From positions 1 to 38,817 of the forward strand of contig JANQRG010000051.1 in assembly GCA_028284665.1 (NCBI GenBank): a stretch of 38,817 bases of DNA. Direction: 5' to 3'. The notes under the pieces are model-generated. The model was not told where the DNA came from. It worked only from the letters and a program-made list of their open reading frames with translations, and ran no database searches. The translations under genes were made by a program, and so were the position numbers. How positions within the stretch are numbered: the stretch's first letter is position 1; the number at the start of each line of letters is the position of its first letter. The stretch comes from Croceivirga sp. Lineage in GTDB: Bacteria > Bacteroidota > Bacteroidia > Flavobacteriales > Flavobacteriaceae. This document shows positions 6,462 through 32,323 of the stretch, one piece after another.

Positions 6462-7328
6462 ATGTCTATCCTTGTCGCCATAGCCGCTTTGGGAGGGTTA
6501 ACCTTACTACTTGCCGTAATGCTCATTGTTGCGAACCGGAAGCTCTATGTCTATGAAGATCCGCGAATAGATACGGTAGAAGACATGTTGCCCCATGCCA
6601 ATTGCGGGGCTTGCGGATATCCCGGTTGCCGGCCCTTTGCCGAGGCCCTGGTCCAGCAAAAAGCCTTACCCGGAAAGTGTACCGTGAGTACAGATGAAGG
6701 TCGGCAGTCCATAGCTGAATTTCTGGGCGTTGCCCTGGGCGCTGAAGAAAAACAAGTCGCTCGTCTCGCTTGTGCCGGCGGGACAAATGTGGCGATCAAT
6801 CGTGCACAGTATGTAGGGATTCAAAGTTGCCAGGCAGCTGCGCTAATATCTGGCGGAGGTAAAGGCTGCTTTTGGGGATGTCTTGGCCATGGGGATTGTG
6901 AAGTGGTCTGTGATTTTGATGCAATTACCATGAACGAACATGGCTTACCCGTAGTAGATGTAGAAAAATGCACGGCCTGTGGGGATTGTGTAGAAGCCTG
7001 TCCTAAAGATCTGTTTTCGTTACACCCCATAAGTCACCGGTTGTGGGTAGCTTGTAAAAATCTGGAACATGGCGATGCCATTCTTGAAGATTGCCAGGTA
7101 GCCTGCACGGCCTGCGGTAAATGTGCCATGGACGCCCCGGGTGAGCTAATCACCATAAAAAATAATTTACCTGTAATCAATTACGTTGAAAATCATACTA
7201 CGCAGGTGCCCATTCAGCGATGCCCTACCGGGGCCATCGTTTGGTTGGATGATAGTGGTGTGGCCATTAAAGGGAAAGAAAGCAAAAAGATCATTCGTAA
7301 GGGTGATCGTTCCATGGGGAGTTCATAG
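6462..7328 (+). CDS. rnfB: RNF complex subunit RnfB
   Basis: RnfB accepts electrons from ferredoxin and hands them to the rest of RNF. The 288-residue protein has an N-terminal membrane helix (about 2-24) and then the cluster domain with C48-x2-C51-x4-C56 and C73. Further Cys sets follow: C136/C140/C146/C150, C170-x2-C173-x2-C176-x3-C180P, C211/C215/C218/C221 and C254P, for several [4Fe-4S] clusters. It is separated from rnfA by two other genes. Its last codons (GDRSMGSS then stop) and the following bases recur at 19197-19245. No hairpin terminator follows it before the convergent regulator gene 43 bp away. Confidence 0.95.
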   Translation: MSILVAIAALGGLTLLLAVMLIVANRKLYVYEDPRIDTVEDMLPHANCGACGYPGCRPFAEALVQQKALPGKCTVSTDEGRQSIAEFLGVALGAEEKQVARLACAGGTNVAINRAQYVGIQSCQAAALISGGGKGCFWGCLGHGDCEVVCDFDAITMNEHGLPVVDVEKCTACGDCVEACPKDLFSLHPISHRLWVACKNLEHGDAILEDCQVACTACGKCAMDAPGELITIKNNLPVINYVENHTTQVPIQRCPTGAIVWLDDSGVAIKGKESKKIIRKGDRSMGSS

Positions 7329-17735: not shown

Positions 17736-19151
17736 ATGAGCAAATCCCTTCGTTTTATATGCTATTGCTACACTTGTCTTGTGTTACTAAGTTGTATAAG
17801 TTGTAAGCAAAACGCCGATAAAGTCCCTATCGCAACACTTTATGTAACTACGCTGGATAAACAAAAGCTTTTAGAAGAAGAGCTAGTATATCCATTGAGA
17901 GCAACAAAAAAGGCCGATGCTACCATAATTATAGATACTTCCACAACGTATCAGGTAATGGACGGATTTGGATATACGCTTACCGGGGGTAGCGCTTTAC
18001 ATATCATGAATATGTCCTCTTCTTCAAGGGAAAAGCTGTTAAAAGAGCTTTTTGGAACCGGAAAAAATGCTATTGGTGTAAGTTATTTAAGGCTCAGTAT
18101 TGGCAGTTCGGATTTGAATAAAAGGCCCTGGTCGTATAACGATTTACCTAAGGGTGAGACGGATATCCCCCTTGAGCGGTTTTCCCTGGCGGATGACACA
18201 TTACATGTACTACCCGTACTTAAGGAGATCCTAAAGATTGCCCCGGATATGAAATTGATGGGCTCCCCTTGGTCGCCCCCCCATTGGATGAAGGATAATG
18301 ACGATACTCGTGGGGGCAGCCTTAAGGAAGAATACCACGATGTTTACGCACGATACTTTGTCAAGTACCTAAAAGCCATGAAAGGCCATGGCATTACCAT
18401 AGATGCCGTAACCGTACAAAATGAGCCATTACATCCAGGAAATAATCCGAGCTTACTTATGTTAGCAGAACAGCAGGCAGCATTTGTAAAGCACCATCTT
18501 GGTCCTGCCTTTGAAAAAAATGACATAAAAACAAAGATCATTATATACGACCACAATGCGGATAGGCCGGACTATCCGATTGCCATTTTGAATGATACTT
18601 TAGCGGCAAAATATGTTGATGGTTCTGCATTTCATCTCTATAATGGAAGCATAGACGCACTGTCATTGGTACATGAAGCCCACCCCGATAAGCATCTTTA
18701 CTTTACCGAACAATGGATCGGAGCACCGGGGAATTTTGCAGAGGATATAACATGGCACACGGAAAATTTGCTTATTGGTGCATCGCGAAATTGGAGCAAA
18801 ACGGTTTTGGAATGGAATCTTGCCGCAGATGAAAACCAGGAGCCACATACTGATAGAGGAGGCTGTACGTCTTGTTTGGGTGCTCTAACCATAAGCGGTG
18901 ATACCATAGTTAGAAACCCGGCCTATTATATTATTGCGCATGCCTCCAAATTTATCCGACCAGGAGCTGTCCGGGTAGCTTCGAACATCGAAGGGAATAT
19001 TTTAAATGTTGCTTTCAAAACCCCGGAAGGAAAGGTGGCAGCTATTCTTCAGAATACGAATAAAAAGGACAAGAGCATTACTATAAAATTAGAAGAAAAA
19101 GTAATACAAGTGAGGTTGAACGCTGGAGCTGTTGCCAGTTTACTATTTTAA
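17736..19151 (+). CDS. second GH30-family glycoside hydrolase, lipoprotein
   Basis: This 471-residue GH30 enzyme is a paralogue of the one at 14984-16453. It has a lipoprotein signal (VLLSC, C20, or C23), then VMDGFGYTLTGGSA, SPWSPPHWMK, the acid/base glutamate E230 in TVQNEP, and the nucleophile E325 in YFTEQW. The C-terminal beta domain contains YYIIAHASKFIRPGA. Both catalytic residues are present. The two GH30 proteins are related but clearly diverged, so they may split the work between polymer and oligomer or between linkage contexts. The gene follows a terminator-like hairpin and may be expressed at a different level from the rest of the locus. Confidence 0.92.
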   Translation: MSKSLRFICYCYTCLVLLSCISCKQNADKVPIATLYVTTLDKQKLLEEELVYPLRATKKADATIIIDTSTTYQVMDGFGYTLTGGSALHIMNMSSSSREKLLKELFGTGKNAIGVSYLRLSIGSSDLNKRPWSYNDLPKGETDIPLERFSLADDTLHVLPVLKEILKIAPDMKLMGSPWSPPHWMKDNDDTRGGSLKEEYHDVYARYFVKYLKAMKGHGITIDAVTVQNEPLHPGNNPSLLMLAEQQAAFVKHHLGPAFEKNDIKTKIIIYDHNADRPDYPIAILNDTLAAKYVDGSAFHLYNGSIDALSLVHEAHPDKHLYFTEQWIGAPGNFAEDITWHTENLLIGASRNWSKTVLEWNLAADENQEPHTDRGGCTSCLGALTISGDTIVRNPAYYIIAHASKFIRPGAVRVASNIEGNILNVAFKTPEGKVAAILQNTNKKDKSITIKLEEKVIQVRLNAGAVASLLF

Positions 19152-19519: not shown

Positions 19520-20659
19520 ATGAAAAATCTAATGCTAATTCGATTGCTGGTAGTAGTTGCTTTGAGCCTGCTATTTGTTCAATGTACCAGCGATCCCATT
19601 CCCGGACCACCAGGAGCAGATGGAATAGATGGAATAGATGGAGTAGATGGGGTTGACGGTGCTGATGGAATTGCCTCCTGTGTAAGTTGTCACTCCGATG
19701 CCACCATGGATATCGTAGAAGCTTCTTTTGATGTATCGTCCCATGGATCCGGCTTTGTTTTTACTTTTACAGGACCCAGAGACGACTGTGCTTCATGCCA
19801 TTCTAACCTCGGGCATCAGGATTTCCTGGCTTTTGGAGAAGTGGATCCAGGCAGCTTAACCAACAATTCCCCGATTACCTGCGCTACCTGTCACGACAGT
19901 CACGATACATTTGACTTTGAAAACGATGGAATTGACTATGCTTTGAGGAGTATTGAACCTGTTGCCCTGGAACTAGATCCGAATACGGTCATTGATTTTG
20001 GCGGAACCAGTAACAATTGTACCATTTGCCATCAGCCGAGGGATAGTTATGTGATACCTGCTGAAGATGGAACCGGTACATATGTGGTTGCTACCACTCG
20101 TTTTGGCCCTCACCACGGGCCGCAATCCACCATGCTGGAAGGTATCATGGGCGCTAACATAGCAGGTTCTGTCGGGTATCCCGGAGTTGCTTCAGCAGTG
20201 CATAGAACCGGGGCTTCCTGTGTGAGTTGCCACATGGGAGAATCTACCGACATCAATGAAGGCCTTCACTCCTGGAACGTAACGGAAGCTTCCTGTGTGG
20301 CCTGCCATAGCAATGGCATACCCTCAGAATTGGCCGGGTTTACTGAAGATATGGCCATCTTAAAACAATTGTTAAGCGAAGTTGTGGGCGAGGAATTTGA
20401 AGAAGATTCCGAAGGCAACCCTGTTTTTGATATGGATGGGAATCCGGTAGGAACAGGAGTACCCGTTGTAGGTCTCATAGTGGATGACTTTCCAAACCCA
20501 GGCGATACGGACCGATCCAGAGAAGGCATTTTTACCACTGCAGAGGCCCAGGCCGCATGGAATTATATGACCTTATTGGAAGATCAGAGTAGCGGAACCC
20601 ATAATCCGGCGTATTCCAGGGCTTTGTTGACCAATTCCATTGAGGCCTTACAGAATTAA
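19520..20659 (+). CDS. hexahaem cytochrome c lipoprotein with collagen-like linker
   Basis: This 379-residue protein is a predicted lipoprotein (lipid cysteine C22, FVQC) with six CxxCH haem-attachment motifs at 54-58, 90-94, 121-125, 167-171, 234-238 and 259-263. Between the anchor and the first haem, residues 29-50 are an uninterrupted Gly-X-Y tract (GPPGADGIDGIDGVDGVDG...), encoded by tandem 9-bp units. Extra histidines (SHGSGF, HDSH, FGPHHGP) could be distal haem ligands. The part after residue 270 is haem-free and acidic. It does not carry the CWNCK or CxxCK motif of NrfA nitrite reductase. It likely accepts electrons from the downstream NrfD/Fe-S module and presents them at an outer membrane face. 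The final acceptor is unknown. Confidence 0.85.
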   Translation: MKNLMLIRLLVVVALSLLFVQCTSDPIPGPPGADGIDGIDGVDGVDGADGIASCVSCHSDATMDIVEASFDVSSHGSGFVFTFTGPRDDCASCHSNLGHQDFLAFGEVDPGSLTNNSPITCATCHDSHDTFDFENDGIDYALRSIEPVALELDPNTVIDFGGTSNNCTICHQPRDSYVIPAEDGTGTYVVATTRFGPHHGPQSTMLEGIMGANIAGSVGYPGVASAVHRTGASCVSCHMGESTDINEGLHSWNVTEASCVACHSNGIPSELAGFTEDMAILKQLLSEVVGEEFEEDSEGNPVFDMDGNPVGTGVPVVGLIVDDFPNPGDTDRSREGIFTTAEAQAAWNYMTLLEDQSSGTHNPAYSRALLTNSIEALQN

Positions 20660-20803
20660 TAAAGCCTAAGGCTACCCTACCCAATTGGGAATGGAGCCCA
20701 TACGCTGTTGCGATGTGTCTTGACATATATGGATTGCCCCTAACAGGTAACCAACAGATGATTGGGATTTCTTTCCCTGAAATATTGGAATAAGATCGTT
20801 TAT

Positions 20804-21202
20804 ATGAATACAATGAAAAAACCACGTAAAATACGCTTAGTAGTCGTTCTTGGGTTATTATTATGCGTTTCCTGTTACTACGATCAGGAGGTAGAAGAAG
20901 TGATTCCAGATATCCCTATAGATGAGCCTATTTCTTACCAGGATGACATTCAACCTTTATTTGTGCTAGAGGGTAGGGATTGTACCACATGCCATAATGG
21001 TACCATTGCCAATCCTGATTTGACGGAGGGGAATTCATATGATGCCATTATCGGATCTCTGGTCCCAGGGGATGCCGAAAACAGTGCCTTCTTTCAAGGG
21101 TTGCCTGGAAACGATCACCCCGTTGAAGCTGGATTTTCCCTTACAGTAGAAGAAATTGCCCTAATAAAAGGCTGGATAGACCGCGGTGCGGAGAATAACT
21201 AA
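20804..21202 (+). CDS. monohaem cytochrome c lipoprotein
   Basis: This small protein (132 residues from the ATG at 20804; 20813 is also possible) has a lipoprotein signal ending LLLCVSC and one haem motif, CTTCH, preceded by a planctomycete-type cytochrome segment (ISYQDDIQPLFVLEGRDC). The C-terminal part has the matching helix (LTVEEIALIKGWIDRGA), which in this family closes over the haem. No distal methionine is obvious. It lies 144 bp after the hexahaem gene and 14 bp before the beta-barrel gene, and is probably an electron carrier of the same cluster. Confidence 0.83.
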   Translation: MNTMKKPRKIRLVVVLGLLLCVSCYYDQEVEEVIPDIPIDEPISYQDDIQPLFVLEGRDCTTCHNGTIANPDLTEGNSYDAIIGSLVPGDAENSAFFQGLPGNDHPVEAGFSLTVEEIALIKGWIDRGAENN

Positions 21203-21216
21203 TAAGACAATCGAAT

Positions 21217-22074
21217 ATGAAAAGTTCCAGAATACTATGTTTTGCCCTATTATTTTTCCATCTCTGTCTCTTTTCCCAAAAAAAAGCAAAGGATTCCATT
21301 GAGGATAAACCGGCACGCCCTGCTTTTGAAAGCTCTTTCATTATTGACAATCCCAATAATGTACTCTTTCCCAAAAATACCATGGAGGTACAAATGTCAC
21401 ACAGATTTGGGCTGATCAACGGAGGAACCAACGACATGTTGGGATTTTGGGGTCCCTCCAACATCCGTATGGGAATTACCTATGCGATACACGATCGTGT
21501 GACCCTCGGTTTCGGGACCACAAAATTTGATCGTCTCCAGGACTTCAATTGGAAGATTGGTATCCTTAACCAAACACGATCGGACAGGATGCCGGTAAGC
21601 GTTTCCTACTATGGGAATTTTGCCATTGACGCCCGAAGAAGGGAAAACTTTAGATTGGACCAACACAGATACTCTTACTTTAACCAAGTGATCATTGCGC
21701 GTAGATTTAATCGCAAGCTTTCCATGCAAGTGGCGCCCAGCGTATCCCATTTCAATCTGGTCGAAGAGCGGCAGCGAAACGATGTTATTGCCGTTTCCTT
21801 TGGCGGTCGCTATAAAATAAGCGATCAGACTTCAATAATATGGGATTATAGCCAGCCTTTTACCCATCATTTGGATGGGGTACGATTGGATATTGATCCG
21901 GAGCCTGTGTTCAGTTTGGGATTTGAAATCGCAACCTCGGCACACGCCTTTCAATTGTTCATCTCCAATGCCAATGGTATTGTGCCACAGCAGAACTATA
22001 TGAAAAATACGAACGATTTCTTTGCGGGGGATATTCTGTTCGGATTCAACATTACGAGAAACTATAATTTTTAA
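21217..22074 (+). CDS. outer-membrane beta-barrel protein (DUF5777-like)
   Basis: The 285-residue protein has a signal peptide (ending about residue 20, LFSQ), alternating amphipathic beta strands throughout, and a terminal aromatic residue (ITRNYNF), all typical of an outer-membrane barrel. The segment NVLFPKNTMEVQMSHRFGLINGG and the GFGTTKFDRLQDFNWKIGIL block recall the DUF5777 family of Bacteroidota, assigned from memory. No enzyme motif is seen. It lies between two cytochrome lipoproteins and the Fe-S/NrfD module. It might form a channel that lets a cytochrome cross or touch the outer membrane, but that role is inference. Confidence 0.75.
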   Translation: MKSSRILCFALLFFHLCLFSQKKAKDSIEDKPARPAFESSFIIDNPNNVLFPKNTMEVQMSHRFGLINGGTNDMLGFWGPSNIRMGITYAIHDRVTLGFGTTKFDRLQDFNWKIGILNQTRSDRMPVSVSYYGNFAIDARRRENFRLDQHRYSYFNQVIIARRFNRKLSMQVAPSVSHFNLVEERQRNDVIAVSFGGRYKISDQTSIIWDYSQPFTHHLDGVRLDIDPEPVFSLGFEIATSAHAFQLFISNANGIVPQQNYMKNTNDFFAGDILFGFNITRNYNF

Positions 22075-22123
22075 CCCCGGTCAATGGACAACTAAACAAC
22101 GGTTTCCTCAAAAGGGTCAATGT

Positions 22124-23107
22124 ATGAAAGACGACAAAACTACACGAAACGGTACCAATAGACGCAAATTTCTGAAAATGGGGTTACTGTCCGGGGCAAC
22201 CACCGTAGCCGGAGCCAGTTTGCTGGCCAATTTGGCGTCGGAGGAAGAACTTAAGGCATCTGGCGAGAAGATAAGGGTGCTTACCCCGGAAGGAAAAATG
22301 GTAGAAGTGGATGCCGAAAGCATCAATAAGTATCCTGAAGCGCATATTACTCCTAAGGAATCCAGAAAGGGCATACCTGGCCGTAAATTCGTCATGGTGA
22401 TTGATTTATCTAAATGCAAAAATGCACGGACCTGTGTGGAGAGCTGTCAAAAAGCACATCATCTGGACTACAATGAAGAGTACATGAAGATCCTTTTGCT
22501 TCAGGACCATGAGGAAGCTGATCCCTACTGGTTTCCAAAACCATGTTATCACTGTGATGAACCCCCCTGTGTAACCGTATGTCCCACCGGGGCTACGTTT
22601 AAACGGGACGACGGTATTGTACTGGTTGATAGTGATAGGTGTATTGGCTGTAAATTTTGCGTCACCAGTTGCCCTTATTCCGTTCGTCAATTCCACTGGA
22701 GCCACAAACCTAAGTTCGACGATACAAGTCAGCCCTATTCTCCGGAAACGAGTGTTCCCGGAGAAGTAGGTACGGTAATGAAGTGTAATTTTTGTCCGGA
22801 TATGCTCAGGCAGGGGAAATTGCCACATTGTGTATCCGCTTGCCCAATGGGTGTTATTTATTTTGGAGACAAAAACGAGGATATGGTCACGAATGGCGAA
22901 GAAACCGTACGATTTTCCGAATTGATCAACGACCGGGGCGGATACCGCTATCTTGAACATTTGGGCACTAAACCTAACGTCTATTATCTGCCTCCGGTGG
23001 ACAGACAGTTTCCTTTGGAACGTGGCTTTGATGTGGATGAAGATATCATTGAACGCTATAAGGATGTACCCTATGTGCAGGATATGAAAGAAAAAGGAAA
23101 GATCTAA
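22124..23107 (+). CDS. Tat-exported four-cluster [4Fe-4S] ferredoxin-type electron-transfer subunit (NrfC/PsrB-like)
   Basis: This 327-residue protein relays electrons on the periplasmic side between a quinol-oxidising NrfD-like subunit and a partner. The ATG at 22124 puts a twin-arginine signal (NRRKFLKMG, R13-R14) at the right place; an upstream in-frame ATG would bury it. Four Cys groups are visible: CKNARTCVESC, CYHCDEPPCVTVCP, CIGCKFCVTSCP and CNFCPDMLRQGKLPHCVSACP. The first is unusual, with five residues between its first two cysteines where two are common. It is followed after 9 bp by the NrfD-like gene. No molybdopterin catalytic subunit, which often accompanies such proteins, is encoded nearby. 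Confidence 0.88.
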   Translation: MKDDKTTRNGTNRRKFLKMGLLSGATTVAGASLLANLASEEELKASGEKIRVLTPEGKMVEVDAESINKYPEAHITPKESRKGIPGRKFVMVIDLSKCKNARTCVESCQKAHHLDYNEEYMKILLLQDHEEADPYWFPKPCYHCDEPPCVTVCPTGATFKRDDGIVLVDSDRCIGCKFCVTSCPYSVRQFHWSHKPKFDDTSQPYSPETSVPGEVGTVMKCNFCPDMLRQGKLPHCVSACPMGVIYFGDKNEDMVTNGEETVRFSELINDRGGYRYLEHLGTKPNVYYLPPVDRQFPLERGFDVDEDIIERYKDVPYVQDMKEKGKI

Positions 23108-23116
23108 CACAAAACT

Positions 23117-24460
23117 ATGGACATCGCCCTACGAAAAAAAGAATTGGTAAAGGAGTTCTCTCCTATGCTGCTAAAACCTGGTAAATGGTCCAAAATATGG
23201 ACCGCCATTTTGTTGGCACTCATTCTATGTGGACTAGCAGCGTTTGTGGTACAGGTAACTCAGGGACAAGAGGTTACCGGAATGCGGGATAATGTGGTCT
23301 GGGGTATTTACACCATTAACTTCATTTTCTTTCTATGTCTCAGCTATTCGGGAGCATTTGCTTCCGGTGTTTTGCATTTTTTTAATACTCCCTGGAAAAA
23401 TGCGGTCTCCAGGATAGTAGAGATAATTACCGTGGTATCCTTGATCGTTGGGCCCATATTCATTATATTGTGCATGGCCCGATTAGATAGGCTTCACTAT
23501 CTGTTTATCTATCCAAGGATCCAGTCCCCGATTACCTGGGATGTGATAGCAATAACCACCGATTTGATAGGTTGTCTTCTCTATCTGTACCTCACTTTTA
23601 TTCCGGATTTTGCTATCCTCAGGGACAATAGTGAAGGATTGCCAAAATGGAGAAAAAAGCTCTATACCTCCTTGGCCATTGGATATCGTGATACCCCTTC
23701 GCAACGCAGGAGGCTTCACAAAATTACCAAGATCATGTCTGCCATGGTTATTGCCCTGGCCATAGTTACCTATTCCGTCCTGGCCTGGATCTTTAGTCTT
23801 ACGCTACAACCCGGTTGGAACAGTACCATCTTTGCCCCCTACTTTATTGTAGCCGGCCTTTATTCCGGTGTAGGGGTCATCATCATTGCCATGTATCTTA
23901 TTCGCAAATATTTTAATCTGGACCATTATATCCGAAAAGCCCATTTCCTGAGTGCGGGAGTGATTTTACTGATTACCGCCTTACTTTACGGTTACTTTAC
24001 GTTCAGTGAGTATTTTGCACGATGGTTCAGCCATAAAACACATGACGCCAATCTGTTGGACACTTTGTTCAACGACTATTTCTGGATGTTCATCTTTGCC
24101 AATTATATCGGGATATTAGTGCCTCTTGCGATCGTGTTCTTTAAAAAACTTAGATCCATAAAGAACATCACTTTTGCAGCAGTCATCGCTGTGGTAGGAC
24201 TTTGGTTTAATCGTTATTTGATTGTGGTCCCCACTCAAGAAACTCCTTATTTACCTATACAAGATACCCGACCTGAATTCATACACTATTCAGCAACCTG
24301 GGTAGAATGGGCCTTAAGTTTTGCAGGAGTCGCAACATTTGTGCTGTTTTTCATGCTATTGATGCGATTGGTACCCATAATTCCCATGTCCGGAGTCATC
24401 GATTATGAAAAGAAAGGAAAGGTACGACGTAATGGATTAACTCAACAACAGCAATCATGA
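23117..24460 (+). CDS. NrfD/PsrC-family membrane quinol dehydrogenase subunit
   Basis: This 447-residue integral membrane protein has about ten hydrophobic helices. NrfD/PsrC/ActC proteins exchange electrons between the quinone pool and a periplasmic Fe-S partner. Family-like features include the first helix region followed by NVVWGIYTINFIFFLCLSYSG, the LDRLHYLFIYPR segment after helix 3, and SPITWDVIAITTDLIGC. The start of the following gene overlaps its stop by 4 bp (ATGA). Together with the Fe-S protein it forms a complete quinol-oxidising (or quinone-reducing) module. Confidence 0.88.
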   Translation: MDIALRKKELVKEFSPMLLKPGKWSKIWTAILLALILCGLAAFVVQVTQGQEVTGMRDNVVWGIYTINFIFFLCLSYSGAFASGVLHFFNTPWKNAVSRIVEIITVVSLIVGPIFIILCMARLDRLHYLFIYPRIQSPITWDVIAITTDLIGCLLYLYLTFIPDFAILRDNSEGLPKWRKKLYTSLAIGYRDTPSQRRRLHKITKIMSAMVIALAIVTYSVLAWIFSLTLQPGWNSTIFAPYFIVAGLYSGVGVIIIAMYLIRKYFNLDHYIRKAHFLSAGVILLITALLYGYFTFSEYFARWFSHKTHDANLLDTLFNDYFWMFIFANYIGILVPLAIVFFKKLRSIKNITFAAVIAVVGLWFNRYLIVVPTQETPYLPIQDTRPEFIHYSATWVEWALSFAGVATFVLFFMLLMRLVPIIPMSGVIDYEKKGKVRRNGLTQQQQS

Positions 24461-25350
24461 AGTTCAATTTGTTCACATATATCATATATGTCTTGTTATT
24501 CGGTCTGTTTTTGGCACCAAATGTAATGGCACAGGAAGTGAACCTTCGTGATTACCGGATGCGCTTCCGCTTTAAAACTGTAAAACAACCGGATCAGTCA
24601 CGAATGTTGGAAGCCAGCTTTATAGCCACAAACAAGAAAGACAGAAAGGACAGATTACCCGTATATGGTGCCGAGATAACCTTTTTTAACCTATTGGAAG
24701 AAGAAAAGGTATCCTTGGGTACGACCAAAACTTCTAAAGAAGGTATTGCCCGCATCATCCTGCCCAAAGATCAGTCCTATTTGAAGGACGAAGAAGGCAA
24801 GGTTACCTTAAAAGCTGTTTTTGAGGGTACCGATGAAATGGATATGGAGGAGAGAGAAATCACAATAAAAGATGTACAACTATCGGTGGAATTAGCAGAA
24901 AAGGACAGCGTACAGACCGTACAGGTCAACGCACATACTTTAGATAGCCTGGGAGTGGAAATCCCGTTGAAAGAAGCCGATGTAATTATTTCCGTACAGG
25001 GAATGCTATCAAGGATGGTTATGGACGAAGGCACCATTGAGGACGGGATATATGAGTTTAAGATGCCCATTGACCTTCCGGGGGATGTAGACGGGAATAT
25101 GACAGTATTCGCGATCATTGAAGACCATGATGATTATGGTGATGTGGTCCAGAAAAAGACGGTGAAATGGGAAGTTCCCAATATATCAAGTCTGGAAAAT
25201 GAAAACAGTTTGTGGTCAGAAGTGGCCCCCATTTGGATGTATGTGGTATTGACCATTTTGTTGGTCGGTATCTGGGCCAATTTCGTATATACGATTACCA
25301 ACCTGCTCAAAATAAAAAAAGAAGGACAACAATTGGAACGAAGCCCGTAG
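24457..25350 (+). CDS. periplasmic Ig-like protein with C-terminal membrane anchor, function unknown
   Basis: I do not recognise a named family. The 297-residue protein has a signal peptide (about 1-25, NVMAQ), then beta-rich segments resembling two Ig/CNA-B-like domains (about 30-135 and 135-245). The first has the pattern PVYGAEITFFN...KEGIARIILP, where a sugar-free linker sequence of the peptidase-regulatory type would sit. One membrane helix near the C terminus (about 260-285) is followed by a basic tail. It overlaps the NrfD-like gene by 4 bp, so it is almost certainly a subunit or assembly factor of that module. The topology places its bulk in the periplasm, where it could hold the cytochromes. 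Confidence 0.75.
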   Translation: MKFNLFTYIIYVLLFGLFLAPNVMAQEVNLRDYRMRFRFKTVKQPDQSRMLEASFIATNKKDRKDRLPVYGAEITFFNLLEEEKVSLGTTKTSKEGIARIILPKDQSYLKDEEGKVTLKAVFEGTDEMDMEEREITIKDVQLSVELAEKDSVQTVQVNAHTLDSLGVEIPLKEADVIISVQGMLSRMVMDEGTIEDGIYEFKMPIDLPGDVDGNMTVFAIIEDHDDYGDVVQKKTVKWEVPNISSLENENSLWSEVAPIWMYVVLTILLVGIWANFVYTITNLLKIKKEGQQLERSP

Positions 25351-25427
25351 ATTGAAGATAGCACATCAATAGCAGGCAGATCGGCCTTATGTATAAAAAG
25401 TTGGAATTAAAAACAATAGTATCAAAA

Positions 25428-25832
25428 ATGAAAACAGTTAGAGTATTGGCAATTATCGGATTGGCATCGTTCGTATTCCATTCGTTCACTTATGAAGATT
25501 ATCAAGAAGAATGGGACATCCCCCAGGAGTATCTGGACATGAAAAATCCTACTGATCCCACTGTGGACTTGGATATTGGAAAATCACTTTACAACAAGCA
25601 TTGTAAGTCCTGCCACGGTAAAGAAGGTTATGGCGATGGTCCAAAAGCTGATGAGGTAGAGGGATTTTTGGGAGACTTTTCCACAGCGGAATTTCACGCC
25701 CAATCAGATGGTGTCATTTTTTACAAGAGTTACATTGGCCGGTACGATATGCCAAATTATGAGAAAAAGATTCCGGATGAGGAAGACATGTGGTTAGTCA
25801 TCAACTACATGAAGACCATGTTGGAGGAATAA
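25428..25832 (+). CDS. small periplasmic cytochrome c
   Basis: A monohaem class-I-like cytochrome c with the motif HCKSCHGKEGYGDGP and a C-terminal helix (EDMWLVINYMKTM). The likely distal ligand is the methionine in RYDMPNY. The N terminus from the ATG at 25428 is a typical signal peptide (MKTVRVLAIIGLASFVFHS), giving 134 residues; an in-frame ATG at 25389 would add 13. It is the last clear electron-transfer gene of the cluster, 77 bp after the Ig-like gene, and could shuttle electrons from the NrfD/Fe-S module. Confidence 0.88.
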   Translation: MKTVRVLAIIGLASFVFHSFTYEDYQEEWDIPQEYLDMKNPTDPTVDLDIGKSLYNKHCKSCHGKEGYGDGPKADEVEGFLGDFSTAEFHAQSDGVIFYKSYIGRYDMPNYEKKIPDEEDMWLVINYMKTMLEE

Positions 25833-27186: not shown

Positions 27187-27972
27187 ATGGTCTTAAGATT
27201 TAAATACACACTATTTTTCATAGGGATTCTGGCATTTATCACAGCTTGCCATAACAGCCCAAAGGTTATTGAGCCCACTTCTATAACGGAAAGTTCCCAG
27301 GATCCGTCTACGGAACTCGACGGCAATACAGAGGTATCATCCAATACCAAATTCCATTCCGTGGTGGTAACTGAAGTACTTCCCACAACAAAATATGTAT
27401 ATCTTAGAGTCAGGGAAGGGCAGGAGGAATTTTGGATTGCCACGGGGAAAATGGAGGTAAAAAAGGGGGAAACCTATTTTTACAGCGATGGATTGTTGAA
27501 GACCAACTTTAGAAGCGAAGAGCATAACAGGGTATTCGAAAAGATCTACCTGGTCTCAAAGTTAATCTCCAGAGGAGATCATACTAACTTGACAAAGCCC
27601 GAATCCAAGAGCAATTCAGTTACGGATAAGCGTATACCGCAAAAAGAGAATATCCCCACTCATACGGAAAAAGAGATCCAACACAAGGGAGCCGTTACAA
27701 TAGCCGAGTTGTTAAAAGATCCTGAGAAGTACGAAGGACATTCCGTGGAAATCAGCGGTACTTGTGTGAAAGTAAATCCTAACATCATGGATCGAAATTG
27801 GATACATGTTCAGGATGGAACTCAAGACGACTTTGACCTTGTGGTAACCTCCAATGCACTTATCACCGAAGGCTCAACTATTACCATTCGTGCCGTTGTT
27901 GCCCTTAACAGAGATTTTGGCTCGGGGTATTCCTATGATCTTATTCTGGAAAATGGCACTTTGATAGAGTAA
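27187..27972 (+). CDS. two-domain lipoprotein with OB-fold-like C terminus (NrfJ-like?)
   Basis: The 261-residue protein has a lipoprotein signal (AFITAC, C21). The first domain (about 55-125) reads VVVTEVLPTTKYVYLRV...EEFWIATGKMEVKKGETYFY, and a Lys/Glu-rich linker follows. The second domain (about 170-261) has an OB-fold-like pattern with IMDRNWIHVQDGTQDDFDLVV. Both halves remind me of small periplasmic proteins encoded near nitrite-reductase-type cytochrome genes (NrfJ-like); this is memory, not a search. It has no haem motif and no catalytic residues I can name. It is 48 bp after hemA and is the last + strand gene of the cluster. Confidence 0.7.
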   Translation: MVLRFKYTLFFIGILAFITACHNSPKVIEPTSITESSQDPSTELDGNTEVSSNTKFHSVVVTEVLPTTKYVYLRVREGQEEFWIATGKMEVKKGETYFYSDGLLKTNFRSEEHNRVFEKIYLVSKLISRGDHTNLTKPESKSNSVTDKRIPQKENIPTHTEKEIQHKGAVTIAELLKDPEKYEGHSVEISGTCVKVNPNIMDRNWIHVQDGTQDDFDLVVTSNALITEGSTITIRAVVALNRDFGSGYSYDLILENGTLIE

Positions 27973-28313: not shown

Positions 28314-29330
28314 CTAGGAAATTTCTAAAATGGTTTGCGTAATAGTGGATACAAATAGCGGTACCTTGTAATCATTCTTAGAAAGTGGGCGTGCCTTTGC
28401 CATTGCGGCTTTAGCCGCAGCCGTGGCATTTTCACTATTTATGGTCTTGTTTTCTATGGCCTGCTGGGCTTCAACAGAGCGATACGGCACCGGAGCGGCA
28501 GCCCCAAGGACAATACTTGCTGATTTGCAGGCATTTCCTGAAACTTCCATAACTACCGCCACATCTGCAAGGGACCAATCATAGGACTCCCGGGCTACCT
28601 GTTTAATATAGGAGCTTTTGGTATTTTTTGAAGGTGGGGGGAGCAAGATTTCCGTAATGATCTCTTTTGCCTGAAGGATGTTTTCCATGGCCATATCCTC
28701 GCCTGCAGACACAAAGAAATCATCCATTGGGACGGTTTTCTGCTTCCCTTCGGCATTTGCAATAACCACACTGGCATTAAAGGCCATAAGGGCAGTAGCT
28801 ATGGAGGAAGCATGAACACTTACGCAAGAACCATTATCCAGTATGGCGTGATTTTCATTTTCGCCGGTTTTGGAATGGCGTGCAAAACAGCGGTCCCCTC
28901 CTTTACGGAAGCAATTGTGATCGACAGAACGGAAATACCAGCAACGGTTGCGCTGGGCAATATTACCTCCCAAAGTGGATACATTGCGAAGTTGGGGAGT
29001 AGCTGCATGGTTTACCGCTTGATGGAGCGCCAAATACTGATTCTTGATCTCCTGATCTGACGCAATCTCCGCTAAAGTAACATTGCTCCCAATGCGTAAC
29101 CCTTTCTTAGGATCATAACTGATTTTGTCAAGGCCTGGGATGTTCCGGATATTGATAATCATTTGTGGCTTAAGCAAGCCTTCTTTTACCCAGTCAAATA
29201 CATCTATACCGCCGGATTTAAAGATCGTGGCTTTTTCGCTAGACTGATATAGTTCATCGGATACGGTAGAATTGACTTGCTCAAGAGCATCCTCAACGGA
29301 TTTTGCTTCGTACCAACTAAATTTATTCAT
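28314..29330 (-). CDS. xanthine dehydrogenase/aldehyde oxidase-family FAD-binding subunit
   Basis: This is the medium, FAD-binding subunit of a three-subunit molybdenum hydroxylase. The 338-residue protein shows the family motifs for FAD: KSGGIDVFDWVKEG early, GLRIGSNVTLAEIASD, then NHAATPQLRNVSTLGGNIAQRNRCWYFR. The last continues into a Cys-containing insert (HNCFRKGGDRCFARH), as in PaoB-type subunits that carry an extra Fe-S cluster. The C-terminal CO-dehydrogenase-flavoprotein-like domain follows (about 225-335). It lies 10 bp after the molybdenum subunit gene. Confidence 0.92.
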   Translation of the reverse strand: MNKFSWYEAKSVEDALEQVNSTVSDELYQSSEKATIFKSGGIDVFDWVKEGLLKPQMIINIRNIPGLDKISYDPKKGLRIGSNVTLAEIASDQEIKNQYLALHQAVNHAATPQLRNVSTLGGNIAQRNRCWYFRSVDHNCFRKGGDRCFARHSKTGENENHAILDNGSCVSVHASSIATALMAFNASVVIANAEGKQKTVPMDDFFVSAGEDMAMENILQAKEIITEILLPPPSKNTKSSYIKQVARESYDWSLADVAVVMEVSGNACKSASIVLGAAAPVPYRSVEAQQAIENKTINSENATAAAKAAMAKARPLSKNDYKVPLFVSTITQTILEIS

Positions 29331-29340
29331 TGTTTCGTGT

Positions 29341-31686
29341 TTAAGAGACTTTACCTAATGCTTTAAGAATGCTGGACGGCGTGATGGGTATTTCATAAAG
29401 CCGTACCCCAATGGCATTGTATACGGCGTTAGCAATCGCAGCAGCCGTGGCAATATTTGCAGGTTCTCCTATACCGTACGCATCCGTAGAGGAGCGCCCG
29501 GAATATTCTTCTACAATAATAGTTTCAATCTCGGGGATCTCCATTGACAAAGGTACCTTGTACTGATGTACATTGGCATTCATCATGTGGCCGGTGCCAT
29601 TATCCATCACCCTGTTTTCATACAGTGCGTAGGATACCCCCTGGATGACCCCTCCATTGATCTGACTTTCCAATTGCCCGATATTAAGTGGTCTACCACA
29701 ACTATGCGCTGCTACTATGCGATCTACCTTTACAAATCCCGTATCGGTATTGACGCTAACCTCCGCAAATTGTACCGATCCCAAATCCCCATAGGCCAGA
29801 CCCCAGGGTTGTTGAAAGCCGCCATAATCATCCGATCGGCTGGCTATTTTACTAATTTGGCTGGTTCGCATTAATTGGGTGGCCTCCTTAAAAGACATTT
29901 TGAGGCTCGTATTCGTTGTATGGCTCACCTGGCCATCGGCCATTAACAACTCTGAGGAATCTGTTTCCCATTTTTTGGCAACAAGCTTCAACAAAACTGT
30001 TTTTGCTTCAAAGGCCGCATTGCGTGTGGGTGGGGTAATGGAACCCGTGACCACACTCCCTCCCGAACCTGGTCCGACCGGGAAAAACGTGTCCCCAATG
30101 TTAACTTTGATATCTTTGACCTGTAGGCCCAATTCCTCAGCAACTACCTGGGCAAGAATGGTCTTTGTTCCCGTTCCTATATCCTGAACACTGGATCGTA
30201 TCTCTACACCCCCGCCTTTATGTATTTTAACTTCTACGGAAGAATCCAGAGTTACAAATCTGGGCCATGTAGATTGGCCTACTCCAAGCCCTTTCTTAAC
30301 CACACCATTACTACTTCCAGGGGGTTGACGACGAGACCATCCAAAAAGTTCCGCCCCTCTTTGGCGCTCTACCTTTCTTACCTCACTCGGATCAATGCGA
30401 TCTCTATACCTTAAAGGGTCTACATTTAGCTTTTCCGCCATTTCATCAATGGCCTGTTCCAATCCAAAAGCACCTTGCACATTGCCGGGTGCGCGCCATG
30501 CGGCGCCGGGCCCGGCATTGGTCAACACATCGTATTGTTCCGTTGTAAAATTGGGGCATGGGTAAAGGATTTGGGCAATACGCCCTACACCGGCACCAAG
30601 TCCTACCCCTGCCGTTCCGTGAGAACGCTGTTGTATACCAGTCAAGGTACCATCGTTCTTGGCCCCAATCTTTAGGTATTGAATGGAGTTGGGACGATTT
30701 CCTTCTGCCAAATGCTCTTCCTGTCTATCCAACATCAGCCAAACGGGCCTACCAGTTTTCTTAGCCAAATTTGCCGCCATAGGTCCGAAACTTCCGGCAC
30801 TGTGTTTGGCACCAAATCCGCCGCCCATGAATTCGCAGATGACCCGTACCTTGCTTTTTGGCAAATTGAATACGCTGGCCATTTCATTCCGGACTGCAGC
30901 TGTATTTTGTGTGGAGGCATAGACCGTCATACCATCGGCATTCCAATTGACCACTACCCCATGAGTTTCCAAAGGCATATGTGTATGCACCTGAGTGCGA
31001 TACGTTCTTTCCACGATAACATCTGCTTCGTTGAAACCTTCTTCCAGATTGCCTCTCGGTCCACCAAAAAAACTGCTGGTAGAGGGACCTCTTAGGTTAC
31101 CTTCACCCTTGCTGCCATCATGGGTCTCACCAACGTCCCCCCCATCTTGTTGTTGCGTAATCGGGGCATCAAATACAATAGGTGCATTGATTTCCATAGC
31201 CGTTTCCATGTCTATGACAAAAGGTTTTTCCTCGTAATTCACGGTAATCAAGGAGATAGCATCTTTCGCAATTTCCAGGCTTTCGGCTGCGACACCTCCC
31301 AACGGTTGGCCAACATATTTCACCATGGGGTATGTATCGGAGCTGTTTTCTTCTCCCTCTTTTGGGGTATTCTCTATAAGGTGGATAGCGTGTACGCCAG
31401 GCAGGCCTTTTGCTTTGGATATATCTATCGATGAAATGGTGGCATGCGGCACATTGGAACGCAACATTTTCGCGTAGAGCATACCCGGCAATTTAATGTC
31501 CGAAGTGTAAATTGCCGTACCCGTCACTTTTTCAAGGGCATCAATTCTTTTGACCCGCTTTCCAATTACATTTAGCTTATCGTTGATGGGCCATACCGGC
31601 GGCTCTTCAACAGGGATATCCCGTTCTATTTCGCCTAAATTATGCCCGGGAATACCGTATGGGAATTTTTCTTTTCTAGTATCCAT
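29341..31686 (-). CDS. xanthine dehydrogenase/aldehyde oxidase-family molybdenum-binding subunit
   Basis: The large subunit binds the molybdenum-pterin cofactor and hydroxylates the substrate (an aldehyde or N-heterocycle; the exact substrate is not readable). The 781-residue protein (ATG at 31686, one base after the 2Fe-2S gene stop) has the opening motif VIGKRVKRIDALEKVTGTAIYTSDI. It also has GGGFGAKHSAG, WRAPGNVQGAFGLEQAIDE and VQDIGTGTKTILAQVVAEELG. The C-terminal block GIGEPANIATAAAIANAVYNA contains the catalytic glutamate. An upstream in-frame start (31764) would overlap the previous gene by 77 bp and is rejected. It has no Tat signal of its own, so it is likely exported with the 2Fe-2S subunit. 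Confidence 0.93.
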   Translation of the reverse strand: MDTRKEKFPYGIPGHNLGEIERDIPVEEPPVWPINDKLNVIGKRVKRIDALEKVTGTAIYTSDIKLPGMLYAKMLRSNVPHATISSIDISKAKGLPGVHAIHLIENTPKEGEENSSDTYPMVKYVGQPLGGVAAESLEIAKDAISLITVNYEEKPFVIDMETAMEINAPIVFDAPITQQQDGGDVGETHDGSKGEGNLRGPSTSSFFGGPRGNLEEGFNEADVIVERTYRTQVHTHMPLETHGVVVNWNADGMTVYASTQNTAAVRNEMASVFNLPKSKVRVICEFMGGGFGAKHSAGSFGPMAANLAKKTGRPVWLMLDRQEEHLAEGNRPNSIQYLKIGAKNDGTLTGIQQRSHGTAGVGLGAGVGRIAQILYPCPNFTTEQYDVLTNAGPGAAWRAPGNVQGAFGLEQAIDEMAEKLNVDPLRYRDRIDPSEVRKVERQRGAELFGWSRRQPPGSSNGVVKKGLGVGQSTWPRFVTLDSSVEVKIHKGGGVEIRSSVQDIGTGTKTILAQVVAEELGLQVKDIKVNIGDTFFPVGPGSGGSVVTGSITPPTRNAAFEAKTVLLKLVAKKWETDSSELLMADGQVSHTTNTSLKMSFKEATQLMRTSQISKIASRSDDYGGFQQPWGLAYGDLGSVQFAEVSVNTDTGFVKVDRIVAAHSCGRPLNIGQLESQINGGVIQGVSYALYENRVMDNGTGHMMNANVHQYKVPLSMEIPEIETIIVEEYSGRSSTDAYGIGEPANIATAAAIANAVYNAIGVRLYEIPITPSSILKALGKVS

Positions 31687-31687
31687 C

Positions 31688-32323
31688 TTAAATTGTTTTT
31701 TTGGCTGCTGCCAAAGTGGCCTTAAATACATGAGGATAGGTGCCACAGCGGCAAAGATTTCCACGAGTGGCGTCTTTCACATCTTCCAAACTGGGGTTGG
31801 GGTTATTTTCCACAAGGTGCACACAGGACATGACCATTCCCGGGGTACAATATCCACATTGGGAAGCATCATGCTCGATGAAAGCTTCTTGTACCGGATG
31901 TAGCTCACCGTTTTTTGCAATACCTTCTATCGTGGTAACTTCTTTGTCGCCAACATCAAGGGCCGACATCATACAGGCGTTCACGGGCTTACCGTCCAAA
32001 TATACGGTACATGCCGAGCAAGCACCCCTATCACAAACGACTTTGGTTCCTGTAAGCTCCAAATGGTCCCGTAAGGCCGAAGCCAATGTTGTTCTGGGTT
32101 CCACACTGAGTGATTTTGTTGTACCGTTGACCTTCATTTTTATGGTCATGGCTCCCGGGCCAAATGCTTTTCCTACTGCAGGTTGTTCCTTGTAATCCAA
32201 GGCAAGCACATTTGAAGTAAGCAAGACACTGCCAGCAGTAGATAATCCTGCACCTCGGATAAAACCCCGTCTACTTATCGTTTTTGCCGATTTGGATTTC
32301 GGGTCCTGGTCTTTTTTTTCCAT
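31688..32323 (-). CDS. 2Fe-2S subunit of molybdo-hydroxylase, Tat-exported
   Basis: The small subunit carries two [2Fe-2S] clusters that pass electrons from the molybdenum site to FAD. The 211-residue protein starts at the ATG at 32323, since the longer frame begins with TTG. It has a twin-arginine signal (SRRGFIRGAG), so the enzyme is probably periplasmic like E. coli PaoABC. The plant-type cluster motif is CDRGACSACTVYLDGKPVNAC, and the second cluster is made by CGYCTPGM and CRCGTYP. It is the first gene of the operon. No XdhC/PaoD-type insertion chaperone is visible in the window. Confidence 0.92.
   Translation of the reverse strand: MEKKDQDPKSKSAKTISRRGFIRGAGLSTAGSVLLTSNVLALDYKEQPAVGKAFGPGAMTIKMKVNGTTKSLSVEPRTTLASALRDHLELTGTKVVCDRGACSACTVYLDGKPVNACMMSALDVGDKEVTTIEGIAKNGELHPVQEAFIEHDASQCGYCTPGMVMSCVHLVENNPNPSLEDVKDATRGNLCRCGTYPHVFKATLAAAKKTI

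Follow-up and report, generated by a model that had tools for sequence, protein, structure and literature searches.

A conserved operon of Croceivirga sp. proposed to link the quinone pool to exchangeable redox proteins at the outer membrane

Gene content of the operon

We analysed a 38,817-nucleotide stretch of DNA from Croceivirga sp. of the Flavobacteriaceae (GenBank assembly GCA_028284665.1, contig JANQRG010000051.1, positions 1 to 38,817 of the forward strand), referred to below as the window, which is contig C19 in a genome of 4.59 Mb and 51 contigs. A preliminary description made from the sequence alone had pointed to an operon of seven consecutive plus-strand genes for a quinol module, cytochrome lipoproteins and an outer-membrane β-barrel. 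All seven were found in the order described, and the families were supported by Pfam and NCBIfam. We call the monohaem lipoprotein and the barrel the neck, and the protein encoded upstream of them the head. The genes, with the two that follow, are:

19520–20659, + strand: hexahaem lipoprotein (head) with lipobox Cys22 and six CXXCH motifs; NrfA/octahaem/OcwA superfamily
20804–21202, + strand: monohaem lipoprotein (neck) with one CXXCH; start codon ATG 20804 or 20813 by eye (listed open reading frame from TTG 20762)
21217–22074, + strand: DUF5777 β-barrel (neck); PF19089, E 3.2e-79; 12 predicted strands
22124–23107, + strand: iron–sulphur (Fe–S) protein with a twin-arginine translocation (Tat) signal; three complete four-Cys motifs and one three-Cys motif
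23117–24460, + strand: NrfD-type quinol subunit; PF03916, E 2.7e-32
24457–25350, + strand: immunoglobulin (Ig)-like protein with an N-terminal signal and a C-terminal hydrophobic segment, both by eye; Big_1 at 14.6 bits, below the Pfam cut-off of 34.9
25389–25832, + strand: class I cytochrome c with one CXXCH, similar to the ActE-like protein of the same genome
25918–27138, + strand: second glutamyl-tRNA reductase (hemA paralogue); TIGR01035 at 200.4 bits, cut-off 209.55
27187–27972, + strand: OB-like lipoprotein, named by eye; no Pfam family

The preceding gene ends at 19151, leaving 368 bases to the operon start at 19520, and gaps between genes from there to 27972 do not exceed 150 bases. 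Because of these short gaps and the common direction, the hemA paralogue and the OB-like lipoprotein are probably also members, which extends the operon from seven genes to nine. Consensus searches were uninformative for both promoters (14 promoter-like sites versus 21.8 in shuffled sequences) and terminators (12 terminator-like sites versus 9.1).

Conservation and distribution

An alignment of seven barrel relatives (A1) was scanned against 84,980 species genomes and gave 411 stretches, 353 of which encode a relative. We took the best 80 of the 353 confirmed matches, which yielded 79 loci that are thus the nearest relatives of the window operon; their genes were called anew, and gene runs were counted with gaps below 400 bases. 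The monohaem lipoprotein gene adjoins the DUF5777 barrel in all 79 loci and an Fe–S gene lies downstream of the barrel in 77 (exceptions L067 and L094), so that a chance layout is excluded. Within runs, Fe–S was counted in 74 loci, NrfD in 71, and the Ig-like protein and cytochrome c in 65 each; nine of the 14 loci lacking one of these four genes stop at the locus edge. The hemA paralogue belongs to the same run in 21/79 loci, and a second NrfD set is present in 10/79. The order is kept across Flavobacteriaceae, Cyclobacteriaceae/Cytophagales, and metagenome-assembled genomes (MAGs) of Ignavibacteria or Chlorobiota. Of the named organisms surveyed, a Croceivirga MAG and Flavobacteriaceae bacterium GF1 are closest to the window, and named isolates among the carriers include Maribacter arenosus, Muriicola jejuensis, Eudoraea adriatica and Lutibacter litoralis. 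The preliminary description had proposed such a survey as a check on its reading, and the order proved to be conserved. Downstream of the barrel a small Tat protein is encoded in 55 of the 79 loci and is missing from the window; at 6625–6888 of L035 and in relatives it has about 88 residues and, as judged by eye, repeats an N-terminal motif of the Fe–S protein.

Among 296 evenly drawn Bacteroidota genomes, operon-type NrfD was found in eight, namely the Croceivirga genome itself and seven others at 35–40% identity, and the common ActC matches at about 30% identity or less were kept apart from this count. The DUF5777 operon surrounds this NrfD in seven of the eight; the eighth, G148, has a different multihaem operon (L038) encoding proteins with 19, 11, 8 and 6 CXXCH motifs, an 818-residue protein with a Tat-like start, an Fe–S protein and NrfD. 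The operon is sparse in occurrence and conserved in order. No description of it was found in the open-licence PMC literature, and DUF5777 is not mentioned in open-licence PMC papers, subscription papers and preprints being outside the search; the earlier suggestion of an undescribed system stands within that scope.

The quinol module

Among solved structures, a profile of eight NrfD sequences (A2) matched ActC of alternative complex III (6f0k_C) at 1e-72, and all eight matches at 1e-3 are C or F subunits of alternative complex III structures. Residues of NrfD and of the Fe–S protein were counted in near full-length proteins with more than 45% identity to a reference. The quinone-site Ser and Asp of ActC are kept in all 92 aligned NrfDs (86 operon-type, 6 references), and a further position, that of ActC Asp253, is hydrophobic in the operon family. 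According to the section on this site by Calisto and Pereira (PMC8076601), NrfD-type subunits have Ser, Asp and one position taken by Asp, Glu, His or Ser. At this third position, the references have His (5/6) or Asp (1/6) and the 65 operon NrfDs not of the window type all have Asp.

The Fe–S protein had been assigned four clusters. Four cysteine motifs are indeed present, but one is a three-Cys motif, which leaves 15 rather than 16 cluster cysteines; these 15 are conserved, and at the second Cys position of motif I, 92 of 94 relatives have Ala. The motif I cluster may therefore be altered, perhaps to [3Fe-4S], and with the order of clusters known from DmsB and NarH it would sit where electrons leave for the cytochrome, well away from the quinone. 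In the ActB of the same genome, by contrast, Thr replaces Cys in motif III. The operon Fe–S protein is 27.8% identical to this ActB (1.6e-25), and the operon cytochrome c is 32.6% identical to the ActE-like protein (2e-10); the alternative complex III-like cluster of the genome is on contig C18, apart from the operon contig C19. Best NCBIfam matches were DsrO for the Fe–S protein (168.5 bits, cut-off 200) and DsrP for NrfD (65.5 bits, cut-off 350). The likeness of the three proteins to ActC, ActB and ActE supports the earlier claim of a traceable electron path from quinol to haem proteins.

The hexahaem head protein

All 44 hexahaem proteins in our alignment (A4, which leaves out L063 and L097, both cut by contig ends) have six CXXCH motifs, and nearly all with an intact start carry a G-X-D spacer after the lipid Cys, which is collagen-like by eye, with PF01391 below its cut-off. 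Against solved structures, the hexahaem profile matched octahaem nitrite reductase at 8e-13, OcwA at 2.9e-10 and NrfA from 2.4e-9, with OmcA/MtrC-family chains next at 3.7e-6. The predicted structure (mean predicted local distance difference test score, pLDDT, 79.2) had both OcwA chains as its best Foldseek matches, at 2e-4 and a template modelling score of 0.44 by query length, and the surface undecahaem cytochrome of Carboxydothermus as the second-nearest fold at 5.5e-3. The NrfA family PF02335 gave 9.4 bits, below its cut-off of 24.1, and the haem that octahaem nitrite reductase binds through CXXCK is matched in the alignment by haem 2, a CXXCH haem.

In PMC6703420, OcwA is described as a terminal reductase, slow on nitrite and also acting on hydroxylamine, whose open haems are of the CXXCH type with His-His pairs over them. 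Between haems 4 and 5, the hexahaem proteins share a conserved Pro-His198-His/Tyr199 (H198 in 44/44, H199 in 36/44), whose position would fit the His-His pair found over haem 5 of OcwA, and we suggest that a catalytic site might be located here. None of the alignments extended to this stretch; the matches of a sub-alignment searched for this purpose (A5, 33 of the 44 sequences) start downstream of it. Other histidines conserved outside CXXCH are H75 (43/44) and H128, H228, H250 and H361 (44/44 each), and Met239 is present in 44/44; it is possible that all six haems are bis-His. The preliminary description had stated that no terminal reductase is encoded. This is correct insofar as the operon contains no molybdenum enzyme, nitric oxide reductase (NOR), oxidase or NrfA gene, but it becomes doubtful in view of the hexahaem protein, which may itself be one: its closest fold is that of OcwA, and its closest sequences are those of octahaem nitrite reductase, OcwA and NrfA.

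Exchange of heads on a constant neck

Upstream of the monohaem gene, a hexahaem head is present in 45/79 loci and an EB_dh head in 18/79, both occurring together in 8. EB_dh heads have one CXXXCH motif, and PF09459 gave 107 bits in L035, the single example tested. Class I c lipoproteins substitute for the head in L103 and L124, and a YceI protein takes its position in L034, a locus outside the 79. On a tree of Fe–S and NrfD proteins from 70 loci, 68 of them with a head label, the head states need 11 changes versus a mean of 27.6 after shuffling, the number being approximate because the tree joins two Fe–S/NrfD paralogue types across a long branch. The starred branches force at least seven changes for hexahaem and at least five for EB_dh. 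These changes on the tree of the core indicate that heads were exchanged while the core stayed. The outer part is therefore modular, with a constant neck of monohaem lipoprotein and barrel and with heads (hexahaem, EB_dh, both or others) that changed repeatedly. Surface signals after the lipid Cys given in PMC5080379 are QKDDE, SDDDD and SDDFE, and EB_dh heads, many with CTHDD, come closer to them than the lipoproteins of the window do.

The DUF5777 barrel and its wider family

An AlphaFold2 model of the barrel from 61 sequences (pLDDT 89.1) has 12 strands of at least 8 residues. The best Foldseek match was NanC at 3.8e-7, with FadL, FapF and OmpG behind, and no solved sequence relative was found up to E 10. 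Conserved charges in the lumen amount to +6.3/−5.0 when the pore side is assigned by hydrophobicity, and with this near balance we rejected a role as anion channel; an MtrB-like sheath was rejected on the 12 strands of the model. With such a barrel, and with no MtrA-like protein in the operon, the earlier view that the genes have the layout of an outer-membrane electron conduit is not supported in the sense of an Mtr-like one.

PF19089 was found in 112 of the 296 Bacteroidota genomes. Three copies are in the Croceivirga genome, two of them on contig C51 (L138) with YceI, OB (tRNA_anti-like) and monohaem lipoprotein genes. For the wider family we hand-picked 32 further DUF5777 loci (12 + 20) and searched up to four genes from each barrel by BLAST at 1e-3, part of the references coming from 12 of the 32 loci themselves. 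Near the 32 barrels we counted monohaem (28), YceI (27), tRNA_anti-like OB (12), DOMON-type (3), cupredoxin-type (3) and Rieske (2) neighbours. Pfam runs on single neighbours were above cut-off for YceI (2), tRNA_anti-like (2), Copper-bind (1) and Rieske (1), and below it for DOMON (1). Type IX secretion system sorting tails are present on a cupredoxin of L145, a weak DOMON protein of L139 and a Temptin_C protein of L148, which are thus expected outside the cell; these tailed neighbours are the best hint that the neck may serve surface redox proteins. Tentatively, and with considerable doubt, the monohaem lipoprotein and 12-strand barrel might form a new minimal outer-membrane electron-transfer unit in more than one-third of the sampled Bacteroidota, feeding exchangeable surface heads (cupredoxin, DOMON, Rieske, EB_dh, multihaem), with the NrfD operon as its respiratory branch.

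Partner enzymes, haem supply and multihaem clusters

Partner enzymes were surveyed in 19 genomes, the Croceivirga genome and 18 isolates picked by hand from the 79 loci. NrfA was found in 6/19 and COX1-family (haem-copper) oxidases in 19/19; a third COX1-family protein is present in 5/19, the Croceivirga genome not among them, and four of these have about 450 residues and are NOR-like by size only. PF00384 matched in 19/19. The single Croceivirga copy, the only one identified, is FdhF/YdeP on another contig and by eye has no export signal, and it was rejected as partner reductase. The preliminary description would have yielded to a conserved reductase elsewhere that always co-occurs and accepts the electrons; within the three families searched (NrfA, COX1 and PF00384), no constant exported partner was found in the 19 genomes.

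Two or more glutamyl-tRNA reductase genes are present in 13/19 carriers, and the second hemA behind the cytochrome operon suggests an extra haem demand. The haem motif pattern occurs at 321 places in the Croceivirga genome, a number that is not a cytochrome census. PF09699 had 0 matches in this genome and 16 in each of three Aestuariivivens genomes, and the search is of limited sensitivity, since it also missed the hexahaem protein itself. On a contig other than that of the operon, Aestuariivivens sediminicola has a cytochrome c and a second hemA that precede a cluster of 11-haem, 4-haem, 9-haem and 656-residue proteins, with two relatives of the OB-like lipoprotein of the window beside a ResB/CcsA gene. 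It is possible that this cluster is a true extracellular electron conduit in Flavobacteriaceae. The A. sediminicola loci L136 and L137 also have a 1632-residue PKD protein bearing 12 CXXCH motifs. A similar cluster, of 11-haem, 9-haem and 659-residue proteins, lies next to the EB_dh-type operon of a Chlorobiota MAG (L065).

Proposed mechanism and alternative explanations

With a little more than even confidence, we propose that the operon encodes a trans-envelope electron-transfer chain from menaquinol to an outer-membrane head, a proposal that builds on the computed gene content, conserved order, families, predicted folds, Fe–S ligands and repeated head exchange. NrfD would oxidise menaquinol and deliver electrons through the Fe–S protein to the class I cytochrome c, steps that are based on homology. 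From the cytochrome, electrons would probably cross the periplasm to the monohaem lipoprotein of the outer membrane, the partner of the DUF5777 barrel, and from there they may reach the redox head, here the hexahaem lipoprotein on its G-X-D spacer, acting as terminal reductase or as surface relay. We infer the direction of flow, the periplasmic handover, the surface exposure of the head, the acceptor and the crossing of the outer membrane by the electron.

Several observations weigh against such a chain. We see no route for electrons through the outer membrane, because a folded cytochrome does not fit inside a barrel of 12 strands and the conserved charges in the lumen nearly cancel. Neither a hexahaem nor an EB_dh head was found in 24/79 loci, of which L083, L086 and L093 begin at the locus edge, and DUF5777 occurs mostly without operon-type NrfD (112 versus 8 of the 296 genomes). 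The residues after the lipid Cys in the window, CTSDP and CYYDQ, are only loosely like the published surface signals. The third quinone-site position, the one of quinone protonation, is Cys in 21/21 window-type NrfDs (Cys119 in the window), a residue outside those listed in the section of PMC8076601. Moreover, with haem-copper oxidases in every carrier surveyed, the operon need not be a main respiratory route.

The hexahaem protein could instead reduce a soluble substrate such as nitrite, hydroxylamine or nitric oxide, either at the outer membrane or beneath it, in the manner of NrfABCD or MccACD, with the barrel admitting the substrate or anchoring the enzyme. The matches that place it in one superfamily with octahaem nitrite reductase, OcwA and NrfA, the alignment of haem 2 with a CXXCK haem and the NorC/NorB-like genes downstream of the operon in L037 (cytochrome c and COX1 by Pfam, Nor by eye) speak for this, as does Pro-His198-His/Tyr199, which is compatible with the His-His pair of an enzyme reported to act on nitrite, if slowly, and hydroxylamine (PMC6703420). 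But the motif is CXXCH instead of CXXCK, PF02335 remained at 9.4 versus 24.1 bits, the His-His stretch lies outside every alignment, and the core persists in loci where EB_dh, YceI or class I c proteins take the place of the head or no head is present. We consider a soluble-substrate reductase unlikely. Somewhat less likely still is flow in reverse through the same chain, in which the head would oxidise an external donor (e.g. Fe(II) or reduced shuttles) and feed the quinone pool or the oxidases. The oxidases are there in 19/19 carriers, and NrfD complexes are described as working both ways, with Qrc reducing menaquinone; however, the closest solved relative of NrfD is ActC of a quinol-oxidising complex, and OcwA is presented as a terminal reductase in PMC6703420.

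Two further explanations have much lower probability. The DUF5777 module might serve redox maintenance of the envelope and not respiration, acting at the outer membrane in the chemistry of quinones, isoprenoids, metals or lipoproteins, with NrfD as no more than a source of reductant. YceI genes near 27 of the 32 sampled barrels and a CusB-like efflux gene directly upstream in L037 (Pfam) and L111 (by eye) would fit, yet multihaem and EB_dh heads and the second quinol modules of 10/79 loci seem beyond the needs of maintenance, and we rate this as very improbable. To a classical MtrCAB-type porin–cytochrome conduit we give even less credence: one operon does hold a barrel and cytochrome lipoproteins, and the 11-haem, 9-haem and 659-residue cluster stands beside an operon form in L065, but the 12 strands of the barrel model, the operon without an MtrA-like protein and the 0 PF09699 matches in the genome (from a search that also missed the hexahaem protein) argue against it.

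Comparison with known systems

The proposed chain from menaquinol to the head works like NrfABCD/MccACD or an extracellular electron-transfer chain, and by the features tested the operon is a member of neither. It shares with NrfABCD/MccACD an NrfA-superfamily multihaem protein, an Fe–S protein and NrfD in one operon, but its head is a lipoprotein with CXXCH at the CXXCK-aligned place, and barrel and monohaem lipoprotein are added. With alternative complex III (ActABCDEF) it has in common an ActC-type NrfD, an Fe–S protein like the Fe–S part of ActB and a cytochrome c like the ActE of the same genome; ActA, the molybdopterin-like part of ActB, ActD and ActF are missing, the three-Cys motif is motif I and not III, and Cys119 replaces His. 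DsrO and DsrP of DsrMKJOP are the best NCBIfam matches of the Fe–S and NrfD proteins, but both were below cut-off, and DsrM, DsrK and DsrJ are missing from the operon. Unlike the molybdoenzyme complexes Psr, Dms and Ttr, the operon has no PF00384 catalytic subunit with molybdenum bis(pyranopterin guanine dinucleotide).

OcwA of Thermincola and the undecahaem cytochrome of Carboxydothermus, the nearest folds of the hexahaem model, are both surface multihaem cytochromes, but they have nine or eleven haems and belong to Gram-positive-type envelopes, and the comparison is by protein and not by operon. MtrCAB and other porin–cytochrome complexes, and Cyc2, likewise combine an outer-membrane barrel with a c-type cytochrome. 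MtrB has 26 strands, and Cyc2 about 16 strands fused to its cytochrome, whereas the operon has a 12-strand barrel in place of a sheath of more than 20 strands and only mono- and hexahaem cytochromes. Of features that bear on a surface-exposed multihaem lipoprotein such as that of MtrCAB, the hexahaem protein has a lipobox, a spacer and an OcwA-like fold, but only a loose surface signal.

If the proposed chain is correct, it would give Bacteroidota an undescribed link between quinone pool and outer membrane, one with interchangeable ends and a barrel whose small size does not allow the known conduit mechanism, and would raise the question of how an electron passes the outer membrane without a large porin–cytochrome complex. 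It would also suggest a function for PF19089, and the named isolates among the carriers make it testable. Were the neck in addition a minimal electron-transfer unit, oxidase-equipped Bacteroidota could discharge menaquinol outside the cell.

Other genes beside the operon

In L052, a Maribacter MAG, a protein with 7 CXXCH motifs, cut by the contig start, is encoded upstream of the operon at 2–2121, beside a 527-residue protein without a Pfam family. The latter was considered as a second barrel and rejected as a general part of the system, being present in 1/19 carriers. In the window, the operon is adjoined on the minus strand (28314–31764) by genes for xanthine-dehydrogenase-like flavin adenine dinucleotide and molybdenum subunits, named by eye.

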